DNA from: an uncultured bacterium
GTDB taxonomy: Bacteria > Patescibacteriota > Saccharimonadia > Saccharimonadales > Saccharimonadaceae
Length of the DNA: 64,000 bases
NCBI GenBank assembly: GCA_903899655.1
Contig: CAIUKF010000010.1
Span: 62,001 to 126,000, forward strand
Direction: 5' to 3'
Numbering within the stretch: the first letter of the stretch is position 1; each line of letters starts with the position of its first letter. The position numbers and the translations under genes were made by a program. Under the pieces are notes generated by a model, which saw only the letters and a list, made by a program, of their open reading frames with translations, was not told where the DNA came from and ran no database searches. This document shows, piece by piece, positions 395 to 11,975 of the stretch.

Positions 395-1472
395 GAAAGT
401 GCATCCAAAAGCTGAAATTAGATTTTGGTGCGACAGTAAGTTTGCTGGTCAATCAAGAGCTATTATGGGTCATTTTGATCAAGATTTGCCAGTCCAAACT
501 ATTATTGGTGGCAAATTTAGACGCTATAATCACGTTTCGATGTGGCGTCAATTATTATGGCCATCAGTCGTATTGATGAACATTCGCGATGGCTTTTTAG
601 TTGGAATCGGCTTTTTACAAAGCATCGTAAAACTAATTATTTGGCGCCCAGACGTCGTTTTTACTAAGGGTGGATATGTTTGCTTGCCAGTTGGTATTGC
701 AGCGCGATTATTGGGCATCCCCCTAGTAATTCATGATTCTGATGCTCATCCAGGGCTAACGAATCGTATACTTGGCAAATGGGCGACGTTAATTGCGACT
801 GGCGCACCACTTGAATATTATTCATATCCAATTGAAAAAGCTCGATATGTTGGGATTCCAATAGCACCAGAATTTCATGAGTTTTCAGATGCAGAGCGTT
901 TAGTAGCCAAGCAAAAGTGGGGGATTAGCCCTAGCAATCCCCTAATTGTGATTACGGGTGGTGGACTGGGTGCTGGGCGTATTAATAACACAACGGCGTT
1001 AGTATTGAACGACTTATTAAAATTGGGTTCGGTTGTGTTAATATCGGGCACTAGTCAATATGACGAACTAAGATCATTGACGCCACCTGACAGTGATAGG
1101 TTTCAACTTCATTCATTTATTTCTAAGGACATGGCGTTGCTTTTGGGGGCGGCTGATGTGGTTGTGACGCGAGCTGGAGCAACGACAATACTTGAACTAG
1201 CAGCACTGGAAAAACCGACTATCTTAATACCAAATGGCAAATTAACCGGCGGGCACCAATTAAAAAATGCCGATGTTTATGTCAAAGCTAATGCGGTTAT
1301 TGTTGTCGATGAGAATAAAATGTTGGAAGAACCTGCTATTTTGGTTGATGCCATAGACGAGATTTTATCAAATCCAAACATGTCAAAAGCTATGGCTCAT
1401 AGGTTTTCAAATTTCGTGCGTCCAAATGCCGCCAAAGATGTTGCCAATATGATTATTTCAAGCGCCAAGTAG
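321..1472 (+). CDS. murG: UDP-N-acetylglucosamine--MurNAc-(pentapeptide)-PP-undecaprenol GlcNAc transferase
   Basis: Adds GlcNAc to lipid I to make lipid II on the inner face of the membrane. The N-terminal glycine loop GGGSGGH (residues 7-13) is the classic MurG signature, and the C-terminal half carries GGGLGAGRINN (about 211) and a nucleotide-sugar region RAGATTILELAALEKP (about 284-300). The length of 383 aa is slightly above the usual 350-370. The start is set by a strong Shine-Dalgarno AAAGGAGG 5 nt upstream, inside the end of ftsW, so the two genes are translationally coupled. Together with the upstream ftsW and the downstream FtsQ-like gene this is a compact dcw-type cluster. Confidence 0.96.
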   Translation: MKILAVGGGSGGHVTPVVAVLREIKKVHPKAEIRFWCDSKFAGQSRAIMGHFDQDLPVQTIIGGKFRRYNHVSMWRQLLWPSVVLMNIRDGFLVGIGFLQSIVKLIIWRPDVVFTKGGYVCLPVGIAARLLGIPLVIHDSDAHPGLTNRILGKWATLIATGAPLEYYSYPIEKARYVGIPIAPEFHEFSDAERLVAKQKWGISPSNPLIVITGGGLGAGRINNTTALVLNDLLKLGSVVLISGTSQYDELRSLTPPDSDRFQLHSFISKDMALLLGAADVVVTRAGATTILELAALEKPTILIPNGKLTGGHQLKNADVYVKANAVIVVDENKMLEEPAILVDAIDEILSNPNMSKAMAHRFSNFVRPNAAKDVANMIISSAK

Positions 1473-3737: not shown

Positions 3738-6470
3738 CTAGTGCTTTATCTGTAACGAACCGTCAGGTTCGATAGTTGCAGCGGGTTGAGTTGGTCTTGC
3801 CTGTTGGACGGGTTGAGGTGTCAGTTGAGGGTTAATTTGCGGTACATTATTATCTGTCGTCACAGCGCCAGTTGGTTTTTTGCGACGGCGGGTGCGTTTG
3901 CGTTTTGGCTTAACTACTAATTCCCCATCTGTTATAACTGTGGTGGGTAATTCACCCTGACTCTGCCCTGCTGGCTGAATGATAGTGCTGGCAATTGGGT
4001 GCATGCCGATAGGCCATTTAATAGCCTGAGCGCGCGATACAGGGGGTTTAACGCTGTCAGGTGGCCTTATTGCGGCGGCAATCTCTTGTTCGACTTCAAC
4101 ACGACTACGGCTGTAATTACGGCGAGTATTTTCGATAATCAGGGCGGTATTGTCCAATTGTGGTGTTGGTAATGTCAAGGTTGTGGCGTTGAAGGCTGGG
4201 GTTTTTTCGCCACCAATAACCATGTTGATAATAAAGTTTCGATTGTGCATTTGTAACAGATCATTTGGTTCGAATTGAGGTTCAAATTGTTTCGATAGAA
4301 TTGGAGCATCGTCAGCTGACACACGGAATGAAATGATTGTGCCGACGTTACCAAAGACGGCGTCACGGACGTTTTCGCCCATTTGGCTGATGTATTGATT
4401 GGCGACGGTTAAATTGAGGCCGTATTTGCGGGCTTCAGACAGAATTGTAGCAAATGAATCGGTCGCAAAATTTTGGAATTCGTCGACATACAGATAGAAT
4501 GGGCGGCGGTCTTCGATGCGTTCGATATCGCTGCGGCTCATTGAGGCCAACTGAATTTTAGTCACCAAAAAGGCGCCTAAAATGGCGGCGTTATCTTCAC
4601 CGATTAGGCCTTTAGATAGGTTGACGATTAATATCTTGCCTTCATCCATGATCTTGCGAATATCGAAGGTCGATTTAGGTTGGCCGATGATATTACGGAT
4701 GATTGGGTTGGCCGTAAAGGCGCCAACTTTGTTTAAGACTGGTGAAATTGCTTCGGTGACAAATTTATCGTTCCAGCTGGCAAATTCGATGTTCCAAAAG
4801 TTCAAAACGACAGTATCTTGGCAATAACCCAAGGTTTCGGCGCGGAACTTCTTATCTGTTAACATGCGTGTAATATCTAGCATAGTAGTTGATGGACGAT
4901 CCAGCAGTGCCAAAATGGTATAACGCAAAATGTATTCCAAACGTGGGCCCCAACTTTCGCCAAACATGCGTTTTAAGACGCCGATAACTTCGCTGCTGAT
5001 ATTGGTTTTTTGGCTTGGATTGGTGACTTCAAGTGGATTAAATCCAAGTGGGAAAGCGGTATCGGCCGGGTTGAAGTAAATGACATCTTTTAAGCGACTA
5101 CCAGGGATGAAACGCATGTTGTCGACGGCGAAATCTCCGTGTGGGTCGATAATGGCATAGCCATGGCCGTGGAATATGTCGCTTAGGGCTAGTAAGGCTA
5201 ACGTACCAGTTTTGCCGGCACCAGTTTGGCCGATAATATAAACGTGTCTGGATCGGTCGGATCGTAGCATGCCGAATTGTTGATTAACGCCGCGGAAGTT
5301 GGTCATGCCAAAGGCACTGATATTTTCGTCAATAGCTGGATTACCAGTGATAATTGGTAATTTTGTAGGTGGTTCGGCGCTTTTACTGCTGGCCCAGACG
5401 ACATTTGGTGTTTCGACGTTGGTGTGTGGCAAGTGAAATACACTGGCAAGCTCGGCAATATTCAGGATATAACCTTCGTCTTTGAAATCGCGTTTGCGGT
5501 ATTCAACCAAATCTTCTTTTGAAAAACTTGGAGCTGACATCTTAAAGCCATTTAGATTAGTGCTGTTGAATTGTTTGAAAGTACCAACAATCGCTTGCAT
5601 CCGCAAACGAGCATTAACGGCACTCTCCCCCAGATAAACTAGGCGAATTTTGACCTGATAACCCAATTTTGTGGCCTTTTTTTCGGCTTCGGCGATGCGG
5701 GTTTTGTCGCGTTCGGATATTTCTTTGACAGCGGTTATACCTTTTCCAGCCTCGGGTGGTTGCCACAAGGCTTGCAATAGTCCAGCAATCCAGGTTAGTC
5801 CCCCGCCATTGGTAATAATGGATGAAGATCGGCCTAGTCGGACATTTTTAATCCAACGATCTGACCATTTATGCCAATCATCGGCAATTGGACGAGCCAA
5901 GATTTGAATCCAAACCTCTTCACCGGTTGATTCAAGTTTTGCTAGAGCGCCGGTAATCCCCGCCAGTGGGTCGACTTCAAAATTTACGAAAGTTTTGATC
6001 GGTAGCATTTCGTTAACAGTCAGTGTTATCTCGGAAGAGTAAGCGATGCTATGTTGATGTTCGTGGTTAACATAATCGTCGTCGGCTAATCTGATTTGGA
6101 CGCTTGGGTATTGTGAATATATTTGGCCTTCGACGAAACTTCGTAAGCTGCGTGGCACCCAGACATAAAAACGAATTTGACCATTAATTGAGGCAATCTC
6201 AAAACTAAGGTGTTCTTGGACGCCTTCATTCAGTTTAAGCTCGTTTTTATCGCGTAAAATACCATGAAGGCTGGCAAAAAGTTGCTCGGCGGCCAACTCG
6301 CTTTTATCATTAGTCTTTGGAATTTCAAGTACAAGTAGGTCGCTGTCGACGTTTTGCATCGAATCGACGCGGCGATAATTACGCCACGTTAAGTATGACA
6401 GAATAAGTACGACTGGTAGCCAGACATACCACTGAAGAAGAAAACTAATTATAGACGATATTATGCCCAT
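3738..6470 (-). CDS. VirD4/TraD-like conjugative DNA-transfer ATPase
   Basis: A 910-aa membrane-anchored ATPase. A transmembrane segment spans about residues 7-25. A large N-terminal domain follows that is common in Patescibacteria. Walker A GQTGAGKT lies near 411 and a Walker B-type LYVDEF near 661, followed by an SEARKYGLNLTVANQY motif typical of VirD4/TraG/TrwB-family and VirB4-like ATPases. The C-terminus is proline- and lysine-rich with a basic patch (KPKRKRTRRRKK, about 855-868). Family members pump DNA or protein through type IV secretion or pilus-like machines. No relaxase or other conjugation gene is nearby, so a housekeeping role in DNA uptake or secretion is possible. It is followed by the sigma4-HARE gene in the same orientation, 48 nt away. 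Confidence 0.82.
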   Translation of the reverse strand: MGIISSIISFLLQWYVWLPVVLILSYLTWRNYRRVDSMQNVDSDLLVLEIPKTNDKSELAAEQLFASLHGILRDKNELKLNEGVQEHLSFEIASINGQIRFYVWVPRSLRSFVEGQIYSQYPSVQIRLADDDYVNHEHQHSIAYSSEITLTVNEMLPIKTFVNFEVDPLAGITGALAKLESTGEEVWIQILARPIADDWHKWSDRWIKNVRLGRSSSIITNGGGLTWIAGLLQALWQPPEAGKGITAVKEISERDKTRIAEAEKKATKLGYQVKIRLVYLGESAVNARLRMQAIVGTFKQFNSTNLNGFKMSAPSFSKEDLVEYRKRDFKDEGYILNIAELASVFHLPHTNVETPNVVWASSKSAEPPTKLPIITGNPAIDENISAFGMTNFRGVNQQFGMLRSDRSRHVYIIGQTGAGKTGTLALLALSDIFHGHGYAIIDPHGDFAVDNMRFIPGSRLKDVIYFNPADTAFPLGFNPLEVTNPSQKTNISSEVIGVLKRMFGESWGPRLEYILRYTILALLDRPSTTMLDITRMLTDKKFRAETLGYCQDTVVLNFWNIEFASWNDKFVTEAISPVLNKVGAFTANPIIRNIIGQPKSTFDIRKIMDEGKILIVNLSKGLIGEDNAAILGAFLVTKIQLASMSRSDIERIEDRRPFYLYVDEFQNFATDSFATILSEARKYGLNLTVANQYISQMGENVRDAVFGNVGTIISFRVSADDAPILSKQFEPQFEPNDLLQMHNRNFIINMVIGGEKTPAFNATTLTLPTPQLDNTALIIENTRRNYSRSRVEVEQEIAAAIRPPDSVKPPVSRAQAIKWPIGMHPIASTIIQPAGQSQGELPTTVITDGELVVKPKRKRTRRRKKPTGAVTTDNNVPQINPQLTPQPVQQARPTQPAATIEPDGSLQIKH

Positions 6471-7721: not shown

Positions 7722-10118
7722 TTAGGCTTTTTTGCGACGAGTTTTGACGGCGCGTTTAGTGACACGCTTGACGGTCTTTTTAGGTGAAGACTTGGCGCTT
7801 TTACGGACAAAACGACCTTTTTTAGCGGCTGGAGCATCTCTTAATAAATCGATTGCTTGTTGATGTGTGATACTGGCAGGTTCGGTGTCTTTGGGGATTT
7901 TAGCATTTTTGACGCCATCAGTAATATATGGTCCAAAACGGCCTTTTAGGACTTTAACACCATCGCCAAAGTCAGCGATATTTTTTTCGGCATCAGCTTG
8001 TTTTTTAGCACTGAACAATCCCAAAGCTTCATCAAGGGTTATAGTATGAGGGTCAAGCGGTTTAATGCTGACAAAAGTTTTATCAATCTGAATATATGGT
8101 CCAAAACGGCCAATGTTAGCCTTAATGACGGCGCCTTCGGGTGTTTGACCGACGATACGTGGTAGTTTAAAGGCATATAGGGCTTCTTCCAGGGTGACGG
8201 TTTCGATTTTGCGTCCAGCTGGAATTGGTGCAAATTGTGGTTTGTCGTCGTCACCTTCACTACCACCCAGTTGTAACATTGGGCCAAAACGACCAAAGCG
8301 GGCCAAAACTGGTTTACCGGTCTTGGGGTCGACGCCGATTTCGCGAGCTTTGGCGACTGAACTGCGGTCGATACCACCTGATCCCTCGATTAATTTATGG
8401 AATGGGATGTAAAAACCGTCTAACATCGTGTTACGTGCCAAAGCACCAGCGGCGATTTTGTCGAACCCTAATTCAACAGTGGCGGTAAAGCCGTAATCAA
8501 CGATTTGTTCAAAGTGGTTCGATAAAAAGTCACTGACAACCTCACCGGCGGCAGTTGGTACTAATTTACCTCGGTCAGATCCGGTTTTTTCTTGGACTAT
8601 TTTGCGTTCGATGCTGTTATTTTGCAAATTCAAGTTAATAATATCGCGTGGTGTACCTTCAGCTTCACCTTTTTCGGCGTAACCGCGGACTTGGACGGTG
8701 TTGATGATTGTGGCGTAGGTTGATGGACGGCCGATACCTAGGTCTTCTAGTTTTTTAACCAAACTACCTTCGCTGTAACGGGCTGGTGGTCGGGCAAAGA
8801 CTTGGCGAGCATTAGCGGACGCTAAATCTAGCGTGTCGCCCGAGGTGACGGCTGGCAAAATTTCGGCGTCTTTTTTGCTGCCACCATAGACTTTCAAAAA
8901 GCCATCAAAGAGAATTACCTCTCCCTTTGCTTCAAAGTTGGCTATTGGAAGGTGGCTATTGGAAGGTGGCGTTTTAATCGCAATTGTAATTACGGTTTTT
9001 TCTAGTTTAGCGGCGGCCATTTGGCTGGCTAGGGTGCGACGACGGATTAGGTCGTATAATTTTTGCTCGTATTCATTACTGCTGGCGCGTTCGACGCGCA
9101 TATCTGTTGGGCGAATGGCTTCGTGAGCTTCCTGAGCGCTGGCACTTTTGGTTTTAAAAGCTCGAACTTGACTGTAATTATCGCCCCAAGTTGATTTGAT
9201 GTAATCGGCTGACATGGCGATGGCTTGGCCACTTAATGTGACGCTGTCGGTTCTCATATATGTGATCTTGCCCTCTTGATACAGTTTTTGAGCGCTGGAC
9301 ATAGTTGATTTGGCGCTGAACCCTAATCGGCTGTTAGCTTCTTGTTGCAAGGTACTGGTGGTAAAAGGTGCGCCAGGATTGCGAACGGCTGGGCTGGTGG
9401 TGACATCAGATACGGAAAAGGTTGACCCGATTAGACTCTCCAAAAAAGCCTGAGCATCTGATTCAGTGTCAAATTTATTTGGTAGTTCGGCCTTAATTAC
9501 GTCACCATTATGAGTAAATTCTGCGACAACTTTGAACGAAAATGATCCGTTAAAAGCATCAATTTCGTGCTCGCGCTCGACTAGCAACCTAACGGCTGGT
9601 GACTGAACACGGCCAGCAGATTTGCCACCAGGTACTTTGCGCCAGACAACTGGTGATAGTTCAAATCCAACCAATCGGTCTAAAATTTGGCGAGCTTGTT
9701 GAGCGGCCACCAAATCCATATCGATTGTTCGAGGGTGCTTAATTGCTTCTTCGATGGCGCCTTTGGTGATTTCGTGAAAAACAATGCGTTTGGTGGTTTT
9801 TGGGTCAAGTTTTAAAACTTCGCATAAATGCCAAGCAATTGCCTCCCCTTCGCGGTCTTCATCGGTTGCGAGCCAAACTGTGTCGGCGGCTGAAACGGCT
9901 TTTTTAAGACCAGTGATGATTTTCTTTTTATCAGGATCGACTTCATAAGTTGTTTTGTAGCCATTTTTGACATCAATCGGTGGCGTACTGTCTTTGGTTT
10001 TTTTGACTATACTACGAATATGCCCAACGCTGGACAGTACAGTAAAGTCACTACCAAGGTATTTTTCAATGGTTTTGGCTTTGGCTGGTGACTCGACGAT
10101 GACTAAGTTCTTGCTCAT
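7722..10118 (-). CDS. topA: DNA topoisomerase I (type IA)
   Basis: 798 aa; relaxes negative supercoils by passing one strand through a transient 5'-phosphotyrosine break. The N-terminal Toprim domain (MSKNLVIVESPAKAKTIEKYLG, DEDREGEAIAWHL) and the catalytic TYMRTDS motif (Tyr near 288) are intact. The C-terminus has repeated GRFGP-containing Toprim-C-like modules (PKTGKPVLARFGRFGP, KANIGRFGPYIQ, LKGRFGPYI) instead of four-cysteine zinc fingers, then a Lys/Arg-rich tail. Near residues 382-395 the protein carries TPPSNSHLPIA, encoded by two copies of a 14-bp dispersed repeat (8941-8968), apparently inserted in frame in a loop. dprA lies immediately upstream in the usual CPR/Firmicute order dprA-topA. 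Confidence 0.97.
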   Translation of the reverse strand: MSKNLVIVESPAKAKTIEKYLGSDFTVLSSVGHIRSIVKKTKDSTPPIDVKNGYKTTYEVDPDKKKIITGLKKAVSAADTVWLATDEDREGEAIAWHLCEVLKLDPKTTKRIVFHEITKGAIEEAIKHPRTIDMDLVAAQQARQILDRLVGFELSPVVWRKVPGGKSAGRVQSPAVRLLVEREHEIDAFNGSFSFKVVAEFTHNGDVIKAELPNKFDTESDAQAFLESLIGSTFSVSDVTTSPAVRNPGAPFTTSTLQQEANSRLGFSAKSTMSSAQKLYQEGKITYMRTDSVTLSGQAIAMSADYIKSTWGDNYSQVRAFKTKSASAQEAHEAIRPTDMRVERASSNEYEQKLYDLIRRRTLASQMAAAKLEKTVITIAIKTPPSNSHLPIANFEAKGEVILFDGFLKVYGGSKKDAEILPAVTSGDTLDLASANARQVFARPPARYSEGSLVKKLEDLGIGRPSTYATIINTVQVRGYAEKGEAEGTPRDIINLNLQNNSIERKIVQEKTGSDRGKLVPTAAGEVVSDFLSNHFEQIVDYGFTATVELGFDKIAAGALARNTMLDGFYIPFHKLIEGSGGIDRSSVAKAREIGVDPKTGKPVLARFGRFGPMLQLGGSEGDDDKPQFAPIPAGRKIETVTLEEALYAFKLPRIVGQTPEGAVIKANIGRFGPYIQIDKTFVSIKPLDPHTITLDEALGLFSAKKQADAEKNIADFGDGVKVLKGRFGPYITDGVKNAKIPKDTEPASITHQQAIDLLRDAPAAKKGRFVRKSAKSSPKKTVKRVTKRAVKTRRKKA
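8937..8969. repeat. Two copies of GCTATTGGAAGGTG inside topA
   Basis: The 14-bp word GCTATTGGAAGGTG occurs twice back to back (8941-8954 and 8955-8968), preceded by TTG. The same word appears in the intergenic repeats at 19.3 kb, and its CTATTGG core at 15.8 and 48.7 kb. Here it is translated on the minus strand as part of topA and keeps the frame open. Confidence 0.75.
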
Positions 10119-10162: not shown

Positions 10163-11020
10163 CTAGCGCAAAGTCCATTGATTGCCACCGAGGGCGCGAA
10201 TCGTGCCAGATATTTCCATCATAGTGATGGCGCGCGAAAATTCGACGATATCCACCTCTGATAAAACTTGTAATTCTTCGCCGTCGCGGATGCCAGATTG
10301 TAATAGACTGATAATTTTCGATTCCAGTGGCGTCGATCCAAGCGGTAATAATGACTGTGGTCGCAATAATTCAGGCGCAATAATTTCCAACACGTCTTCG
10401 GCGCAAGTGATGGGATGGGCGCCTTGTTTTATTAGGTTATTGCAGCCGGCTGACAACGGACTGGTAATATTACCAGGGACAACAAAGACTTCCCGACCCT
10501 GTTCAAGGGCGTGAGCGGCGGTTGATAACGTGCCACTGCGGGCGGCAGCTTCGGTGACGATAATGGCGTCGGATAATCCGCTGACGATTCGATTGCGTTC
10601 AAGGAACTGAAAGTCTCTGGCTTCGGTTCCGGGTTCGTATTCGCTTATGATTGCGCCTTCGTGGGCTAAAACGTCATACGCGAGGTCTCTGTTGGTCGCA
10701 GGGTATATTATATCGACACCATTAGCCAGAACGGCGAGTGTTTTACCGCCAGCGTCCAATGCAGCCCGATGAGCGATAGCGTCAACGCCTAATGCCAGAC
10801 CACTGACGATTACGACGCCACGTTTAGCGATATCGAATGCCAGTTGGTATGTCACCTCTTTGCCATAGGCTGTTGGTTTACGTGATCCGACAATCGCGAC
10901 GGTTGGAATGCGCTTGTCCGGTATTTTTCCTATAAAATGTAACTTTTTGGGTGGAATAGCAATAGTAGTAATAATCTGTAAGTATTTACTGTCTTGGGGT
11001 GATATACTATTGATTTTCAT
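10163..11020 (-). CDS. dprA: DNA-processing protein DprA (Smf)
   Basis: 285 aa. Loads RecA onto incoming single-stranded DNA during natural transformation. The Rossmann-like DprA core is clear: VGSRKPTAYG (about 45-54), SGLALGVDAIAH (about 76-87), NGVDIIYPATN, and RSGTLSTAAHALEQGREVF. A C-terminal winged-helix-like segment follows (EVDIVEFSRAITMMEISGTIRAL). The N-terminal SAM-like domain of longer DprA proteins is missing or reduced. The gene sits 44 nt upstream of topA on the same strand, so the two are probably co-transcribed. It fits the competence reported for Saccharibacteria-like bacteria. Confidence 0.95.
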   Translation of the reverse strand: MKINSISPQDSKYLQIITTIAIPPKKLHFIGKIPDKRIPTVAIVGSRKPTAYGKEVTYQLAFDIAKRGVVIVSGLALGVDAIAHRAALDAGGKTLAVLANGVDIIYPATNRDLAYDVLAHEGAIISEYEPGTEARDFQFLERNRIVSGLSDAIIVTEAAARSGTLSTAAHALEQGREVFVVPGNITSPLSAGCNNLIKQGAHPITCAEDVLEIIAPELLRPQSLLPLGSTPLESKIISLLQSGIRDGEELQVLSEVDIVEFSRAITMMEISGTIRALGGNQWTLR

Positions 11021-11042
11021 ATAATTTTATTACTAAAAGTAT

Positions 11043-11070
11043 TGACTTATATACGATTACGTGCTATTAT
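11043..11070 (+). promoter_or_regulatory. Strong sigma70-type promoter for the candidate RNA
   Basis: TTGACT, 17 bases, then TATTAT preceded by TGC (extended -10), on the plus strand in the dprA-pth gap. No plus-strand coding frame follows; the next feature is a series of hairpins ending in a terminator. Confidence 0.7.
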
Positions 11071-11076
11071 CGGAAA

Positions 11077-11401
11077 CGATTGGTTATATTGCGAGATTAA
11101 CCAAACGCACCTTATACCCCCTATTCTAATAGTGAACTTACCGCTTGGCAATGTAATTTTATAATTACAGGCTAAGTGGTAAGTTCACAAATGTTAGATT
11201 ATATACAATGTGTTTTTAAGGTAGACTACCCTCCATCCTTAAGAAATGACACTTCGAGTGTAAGGCATTGTATATATACTAATCCCTTTAACCAGCGGGC
11301 TTCTGCAATTATTATTGAGAATGCTGCGCATACCCTTGGGTGGGTTAAAGGGTAAAATAGCGCTCCCAGCGATGCCCACCCTTGCTGAGAGCGCTTTTTT
11401 A
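11077..11401 (+). ncRNA. Candidate structured non-coding RNA (~325 nt), family not recognised
   Basis: Between a good promoter and a Rho-independent terminator lie consecutive hairpins: TTGGTTA/TTAACCAA (11080-11104); an 11-bp perfect stem GTGAACTTACC/GGTAAGTTCAC (11132-11188) enclosing GTAATT/AATTAC; TTAAGG/CCTTAA (about 11216-11242) inside ACAATG/CATTGT; ACACT-TCG-AGTGT (about 11250); and a 10-bp perfect stem CCCTTTAACC/GGTTAAAGGG (11284-11352). No open frame of useful size is present. The size would suit 6S RNA, RNase P RNA or tmRNA, but their hallmark sequences (including a 3' CCA end for tmRNA) were not seen. Its identity is left open. Confidence 0.6.
11358..11401 (+). terminator. Rho-independent terminator of the candidate RNA
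   Basis: AGCGCTC ... GAGAGCGCT stem followed by six T residues, on the plus strand. The flanking genes are both on the minus strand, so it can only serve the RNA above, or act in reverse orientation without a U tract. Confidence 0.75.
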
Positions 11402-11405
11402 GTGT

Positions 11406-11975
11406 CTAAATGTCAGTTTTTAGACTGGTGATTTTTATAGTGCCGCCACAAAAGTGTTCAATTAATTGAATGACGTGTGGGGTGATTTCAGTTGCAAGGT
11501 GTTTTGATTCGTCGGCGCTGAATTTTGCTAGGACAAAATCAGTGTCGCCTATTTGTTGGCGCTTGTCATTGTCGATGCCGATGCGGATGCGGTGAAAATC
11601 GGTGCCAAGGTGAGAATTTAATGATTTTATGCCATTATTACCAGCGTCACGGCCTTGGTTGCGAACACGAATTGTGCCAAATGGCAGCGCTAAATCGTCA
11701 TGAATAACCAGTAAATCGCTGCTTGTATTTAATTTATAAAAGTCGACTAGATTTCGAGCACTGTCCCCTGTTTCATTGTAAAAAGTCGTTGGTTTAACCA
11801 GTAATACCTTTTCGCCATTTATCGTTGTTTCGGCAATATGGGCGTGAAATTTAGTTTTGTTGGTCCAATTGGCGCCTAATTGGTCAGCCAAGGCATTAAT
11901 CATCGCAAAGCCGACATTATGGCGTGTTGACGTATAATCTGGTTCGGGATTGCCTTGAGCGAATATTAACTTCAT
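11406..11975 (-). CDS. pth: Peptidyl-tRNA hydrolase
   Basis: 189 aa. Cleaves peptidyl-tRNA released by stalled ribosomes. Canonical active-site elements are visible: Asn9 in GNPEPDY (usually GNPG), His19 in STRHNVGF, and the Asp of VIHDDLALPFG (about 92), followed by RDAGNNGIKS. The chosen start (MKLIFAQGN) matches the family. The frame stays open for another 36 codons upstream, but that part overlaps the promoter region of the divergent protease gene and is not family sequence. Confidence 0.95.
   Translation of the reverse strand: MKLIFAQGNPEPDYTSTRHNVGFAMINALADQLGANWTNKTKFHAHIAETTINGEKVLLVKPTTFYNETGDSARNLVDFYKLNTSSDLLVIHDDLALPFGTIRVRNQGRDAGNNGIKSLNSHLGTDFHRIRIGIDNDKRQQIGDTDFVLAKFSADESKHLATEITPHVIQLIEHFCGGTIKITSLKTDI

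Follow-up and report, generated by a model that had tools for sequence, protein, structure and literature searches.

The region between dprA and pth in the window (the whole stretch of DNA analysed, 64,000 nucleotides) raises the question of what is transcribed there and what the product does. The initial annotation had placed in it an RNA gene of about 325 nt belonging to no recognised family, on the strand opposite to both neighbours, with an extended TTGACT-17-TATTAT promoter, a terminator with six T residues and no coding frame. These points stood up well. Both dprA and pth lie on the minus strand and the RNA on the plus strand (Table 1), the promoter is present and conserved throughout the genus, the 3' end is a hairpin followed by six T, and the only sizeable open reading frame (59 amino acids, plus strand) is not kept among relatives, whose insertions and deletions are not multiples of three. 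The gene is supported by its fold and its conservation, and no Rfam family matches it. The extent first given, 11043-11401, held as far as a real plus-strand gene is concerned, but its 5' part is promoter; the RNA begins at about 11077, a position inferred from the -10 box and the onset of conservation.

Structure and distribution of the RNA gene

The plus strand folds with -122.7 kcal/mol (z = -8.4), and none of 100 shuffled sequences folded equally well. Promoter matches of this quality are found at seven sites against 4.6 expected by chance, so that the match alone is not beyond chance; the promoter is convincing because it is conserved, the box reading TTGAC[AT]...TGCTAATAT across the genus, and not because of the quality of the match. 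With a promoter and an intrinsic terminator of its own, the RNA would be made from a separate gene, which is one mark of a trans-acting base-pairing small RNA.

Table 1. Features of the RNA locus in the window, and copies of the RNA in viral contigs (last two lines)
Feature	Position	Strand	Basis or remark
dprA, divergent neighbour (DNA_processg_A)	10163..11020	-	conserved neighbour across the order
Promoter TTGACT-17 nt-TATTAT, TG extension	11042..11070	+	22 nt from the dprA start codon; conserved genus-wide
RNA gene	11077..11401	+	length 325 nt; most relatives 250-270 nt
P1, 5' hairpin TTGGTTA..TAACCAA	11080..11104	+	alifold; order-wide alignment, double-sided changes at 10/10 pairs
Single-stranded C-rich module ACCTTATACCCCC, then TATTCTAA	11109..11121	+	conserved
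Insertion with 11-bp perfect stem GTGAACTTACC/GGTAAGTTCAC	11130..11191	+	alignment; missing from most relatives
P2/P3, closing stem GTTAG..CTAAT and long hairpin exposing TACCCTCCA (11227-11235)	11193..11282	+	alifold; 15/17 pairs with double-sided changes
P4, CCCTTTAACC (11284-11293) with GGTTAAAGGG (11343-11352)	11284..11352	+	alifold, order-wide alignment
P5, intrinsic terminator hairpin and T-run	11359..11401	+	covariation in the stem, not in the loop
Terminator loop GATGCCCACCCTT	11371..11383	+	putative antisense seed for AAGGGTGGG(CATC) at the ribosome-binding sites of pilus genes and pgk; also in phage hairpins
pth, convergent neighbour (Pept_tRNA_hydro)	11406..11975	-	ORF list, Pfam
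Full-length RNA copy, viral contig L195 (IMGVR_UViG_3300049064_000004)	7977-8368	+	
Shortened RNA copy, viral contig L194 (IMGVR_UViG_3300025875_000066)	537-641	+	

Within the genus, BLAST detects the RNA in all 17 good-quality genomes and in 26 of the 28 overall; across the order, 306 of 393 Saccharimonadales genomes, from about 37 families, have a match to a covariance model, nearly always as a single copy. In a sample of the phylum, the model recovers it from 31 of 32 Saccharimonadales genomes and from none of about 350 other Patescibacteria genomes, and the family is therefore restricted to Saccharimonadales. The divergent dprA start lies about 55 nt upstream in 24 of 26 genus copies and at 34 of 43 loci across the order, where pth often follows the RNA. 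In the stretch that separates dprA from the RNA (11021-11076), the -35 box of most relatives is covered by an inverted repeat, TTGACAT.ATGTCAA, possibly an operator or a -35 element shared by both genes; dprA itself has nearly no room for a leader.

An Rfam scan and a search for covariation across related genomes had been proposed as checks by the initial annotation. In the scan, run against Rfam 15, no family matched the gene at the gathering threshold and only chance matches appeared down to E = 10; 20 distant homologues likewise matched no family. The covariation is strong: among 58 pairs, 51 show double-sided changes in an alignment of 43 diverse copies, amounting to 506 cells where shuffled controls give 153. 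These counts are inflated by an order-wide alignment fitted to the model structure; the signal is lost when the pairing partners are slid.

The consensus structure is a row of separate stems. Common to 26 aligned copies are the promoter, the 5' hairpin, the module ACCTTATACCCCC-TATTCTAAC, the loop TACCCTCCA, the helix CCCTTTAACC/GGTTAAAGGG and the terminator loop GATGCCCACCCTT, and three C-rich loops are invariant across the order. These loops are probably the functional parts of the RNA, and not the error-free 11-bp stem that the initial annotation had singled out. That stem does exist (11132-11142 with 11178-11188), but it belongs to a local insertion of 50-60 nt inside the loop of a small CTAAC/GTTAG hairpin, which most relatives lack; it is recent and restricted to the source species and its close kin.

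Depending on the species, the CTAAC/GTTAG and P3 loops tolerate inserts of 30-160 nt, of which some are self-complementary (in the window, at 11130-11191, and at loci L004 and L019). For GTTAG there is a CTAA(C/T) partner on each side (11109-11135; 11193-11197 and 11279-11283), which makes the 5' module and the P2 stem alternative partners, and a conformational switch is possible. Within P4, GGGTGGG (11338-11344) could also pair with the terminator loop; as a pseudoknot this attractive pairing was not supported by covariation, the loop being constant where GGGTGGG changes.

Complementarity of the terminator loop to pilus genes and pgk

The terminator loop GAUGCCCACCCUU is complementary to AAGGGUGGG(CAUC), a sequence located some 8 nt ahead of the coding start in pgk and in type IV pilus genes, namely pilA1, a second major-type pilin gene, pilT and pilM2. 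In the source genome, the sites are AAAGGGTGGGACAGATC followed by GTG in pilA1, and GAAGGGGTGGAATAAA and AGCGGGCATC, each followed by ATG, in pilT and pilM2, respectively. A search of 393 genomes for AAGGGTGGGCA-N(3-12)-ATG returned 12 pilin genes and one other gene, matches inside the RNA gene or without an open frame being left out of the count. The loop was also considered as a widespread host mRNA element and rejected as such, because TGCCCACCC occurs once in the complete 1.04 Mb genome G223, within the RNA gene, and extra copies in other host genomes are mostly not in hairpins; several of these are the reverse complement, AAAGGGTGGGCA, 7-9 nt before type IV pilin starts.

The targets were examined in the leaders of G223 and in regions from about 30 genomes of some 20 families, with start codons assigned by homology and gene names supported by Pfam. 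In an unbiased ranking of the 1069 G223 leaders against the loop, pgk came first, pilM2 second, pilB1 fifth and pilA1 eleventh, and in a rank test the pilus gene set did better with the true loop than with 142 of 150 shuffled ones, a moderate result. Across genomes, a leader was counted when it had 6 nt or more of exact complement no farther than 28 nt from the start codon. Such sites were present in 11/17 pilA1, 11/14 second pilin, 12/20 pilT, 11/20 pilM2 and 12/26 pgk leaders, each set being compared with 37 of 771 other genes (Fisher p 4e-9 to 4e-12, values that overstate independence since the leaders are kin by descent, although mostly one genome was taken per family); pooled, they make 57 of 97 target genes. 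Measured to their centre, the sites lie at a median of 8.5 nt upstream of the start codon. About 40% of the candidate target leaders have no 6-nt match, and the neighbouring pilus genes pilB1, pilC1, pilB2 and pilC2 have one in 7 of 77 cases. Triosephosphate isomerase was tried as a further target and dropped, with 2-4 of 26 leaders and no enrichment.

All 471 permuted loops scored below 57/97 (mean 12, maximum 51). Some of those that keep a GGGTGG-like word came near, so that part of the signal is accounted for by a G-rich variant of the ribosome-binding site. The outer bases of the loop vary by lineage, and in the few cases available the targets vary with them: they read GGGCATC in genomes with a GATGCCC loop (G000, G062 and G223) and GGGCACC in those with a GGTGCCC loop (G050, G037 and G047; also G064, whose loop was not read). 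The complementarity is to mRNAs from other loci and is conserved, a further mark of trans-acting small RNAs.

Taken together, the gene is likely to encode a structured, trans-acting regulatory antisense RNA whose terminator loop targets the ribosome-binding sites of pilus genes and pgk, and it probably controls the pili with which these tiny parasitic Saccharibacteria, living as episymbionts, catch their hosts. Pairing of GAUGCCCACCCUU with these sites would mask them, block ribosome binding and repress translation, which would lower the synthesis of pilin, the pilus motor and phosphoglycerate kinase, and the cell could in this way switch lower glycolysis along with its pili. Extra seeds may be provided by the C-rich 5' module and the P3 loop. 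A complement of at least 6 nt to the 5' module ACCTTATACCCCC occurs in 11 of 17 pilA1 leaders, so that the module is a possible second pairing site for pilin mRNA; as seeds in G223, neither it nor the P3 loop had clear targets, and both showed partial matches to pilins.

Pili are important for attachment to hosts in this group. N. lyticus has two, one of them essential and serving in twitching, the other binding the host (PMC12206443). Glycolysis sustains the host-free phase (PMC12815258), and common control of pili and glycolysis would make sense. The RNA may thus suggest how a genome of less than 1 Mb switches between attached and searching states. As N. lyticus TM7x is transformable and pilus mutants exist, the idea is directly testable.

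Loop hairpins in phage contigs

Two viral contigs carry the 5' module, one (L195) in a full-length RNA and the other (L194) in a shortened form in which the P3 hairpin doubles as terminator. A further short form (4717-4825, minus strand) and a separate loop hairpin (4214-4239, minus strand) lie on contig 1 of Antrihabitans sp. YC2-6 (L111, NZ_JAEMNW010000001.1), among phage-like genes at 49.5% GC in the isolate record of an unrelated bacterium; this location is possibly contamination or an assembly error. In the phage collection, a DNA search with the RNA gave no matches and a search with short hairpins gave chance matches only.

The terminator loop alone is far commoner in viral contigs, 53 of which contain GYGATGCCCACCCTTRC and 37 GYGGTGCCCACCCCCTC. 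In 71 loop-bearing phage contigs the flanks extend the stem by at least six pairs, with unrelated stem sequences; for a permuted loop the corresponding figure is 0 of 5. Of 73 phage loop hairpins, a T-run follows 18 (1% expected) and a -10-like box immediately precedes 19 (6% expected); at least three combine the two, a promoter followed directly by the hairpin and T-run.

The contigs with these hairpins encode terminase, tape measure, portal and endolysin proteins. Some of them share proteins with contigs that carry the RNA, and their two loop dialects are those of the hosts, from which we infer that the phages infect Saccharibacteria. Most simply, the phage hairpins would be mimics of the seed of the RNA, copying its control; as an alternative, they may be decoys capturing either a protein or the GGGUGGG of the RNA itself. 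It is conceivable, though we would put it somewhat below an even chance, that Saccharibacteria phages carry minimal mimics of the RNA, in some cases no more than a promoter, a stem and the 13-nt loop, and that by pairing with pilin ribosome-binding sites these mimics shut off pili during infection. Such a shut-off, if true, might for example exclude other phages or detach the infected cell, and the copying of the loop would be an unusual case of RNA mimicry that points to pili as a phage receptor.

Alternative explanations and known systems

The phage hairpins also bear on the strongest competing explanation, namely that the RNA is a scaffold or decoy for a protein recognising C-rich loops, the GGGTGG sites at pilus genes being a separate feature. 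The invariance of the three C-rich loops across the order, and a 13-nt loop kept on unrelated stems as a protein site would be, fit this. It leaves unexplained, however, both the exact complement at pilus starts and the matched change from GATGCCC/GGGCATC to GGTGCCC/GGGCACC, and we regard it as unlikely.

Somewhat less probable still is that the loop matches by coincidence, GGGTGG being no more than a common Shine-Dalgarno variant in this lineage. G-rich motifs are expected near starts, and permuted loops do reach 51/97. Yet the usual form in G223 is GGAGG, with GGUGG in 4 of 18 pilus genes against 17 of 1051 others; the pilB and pilC neighbours in the same operons lack the site, and the matches extend into CATC or CACC in step with the loop dialect.

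A divergent housekeeping RNA beyond the reach of the Rfam models, 6S or SRP, is a much weaker candidate. The initial annotation had judged that the housekeeping RNAs it considered do not match, and indeed the 6S, SRP, RNase P and tmRNA models give nothing at the locus. RNase P RNA (RF00010) and tmRNA (RF00023) were located elsewhere, on contig C8 of the same genome. The models for 6S (RF00013) and small SRP (RF00169) found nothing in 28 genomes of the genus, nor did that for large SRP (RF01854) in 61 genomes of the order (G000 and 60 others); the SRP RNA of these genomes is thus unaccounted for by Rfam models, and so is 6S, which leaves a place for such an RNA. The RNA nevertheless has neither the GGAA-capped helix of SRP nor the single long bulged hairpin of 6S, being instead a row of separate stems, and its distant homologues match no family either.

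Least probable of all is a role at dprA, whether as a cis element or as an antisense RNA to that gene: the divergent start in most of the order does bring both promoters into one short stretch, but there is no overlap between the RNA and dprA, and at two loci (L068 and L078) the RNA persists although dprA has been lost and topA stands in its place, so it does not serve dprA.

The preferred reading remains that of a trans-acting antisense RNA. Such RNAs are already known; the novelty lies in the family, in its spread through an order of Patescibacteria, in the terminator-loop seed and in the phage copies. For the Patescibacteria, a very large bacterial group, no described regulatory RNA was found in the literature searched. 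The C-rich-loop RNAs of Gram-positive bacteria, RsaE/RoxS and LhrC, present several C-rich unpaired loops aimed at G-rich ribosome-binding sites; the Saccharimonadales RNA is much larger, multi-helix, order-wide and single copy, and occurs in a different lineage. Like 6S and bacterial SRP RNA it is a conserved, single-copy non-coding RNA, but its secondary structure differs from theirs and it has no Rfam match. The raiA-motif RNA (ModT, RF03072) is also large, structured and widely conserved, and its function long went unexplained (PMC11706538); the RNA described here is, by contrast, restricted to Saccharimonadales, and RF03072 does not match the gene even at E up to 10. The nearest functional parallel may be RocR of Legionella pneumophila, a trans-acting, FinO/ProQ-dependent RNA that, with RocC, pairs with the 5' UTRs of genes for DNA uptake, a pilus-like system (PMC7973641, PMC9674577). 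Both RNAs would act in trans, end in an intrinsic terminator and control a related kind of machine, whereas here the predicted seed is the terminator loop and the predicted targets are type IV pili and pgk; a sequence relation between the two is not expected.
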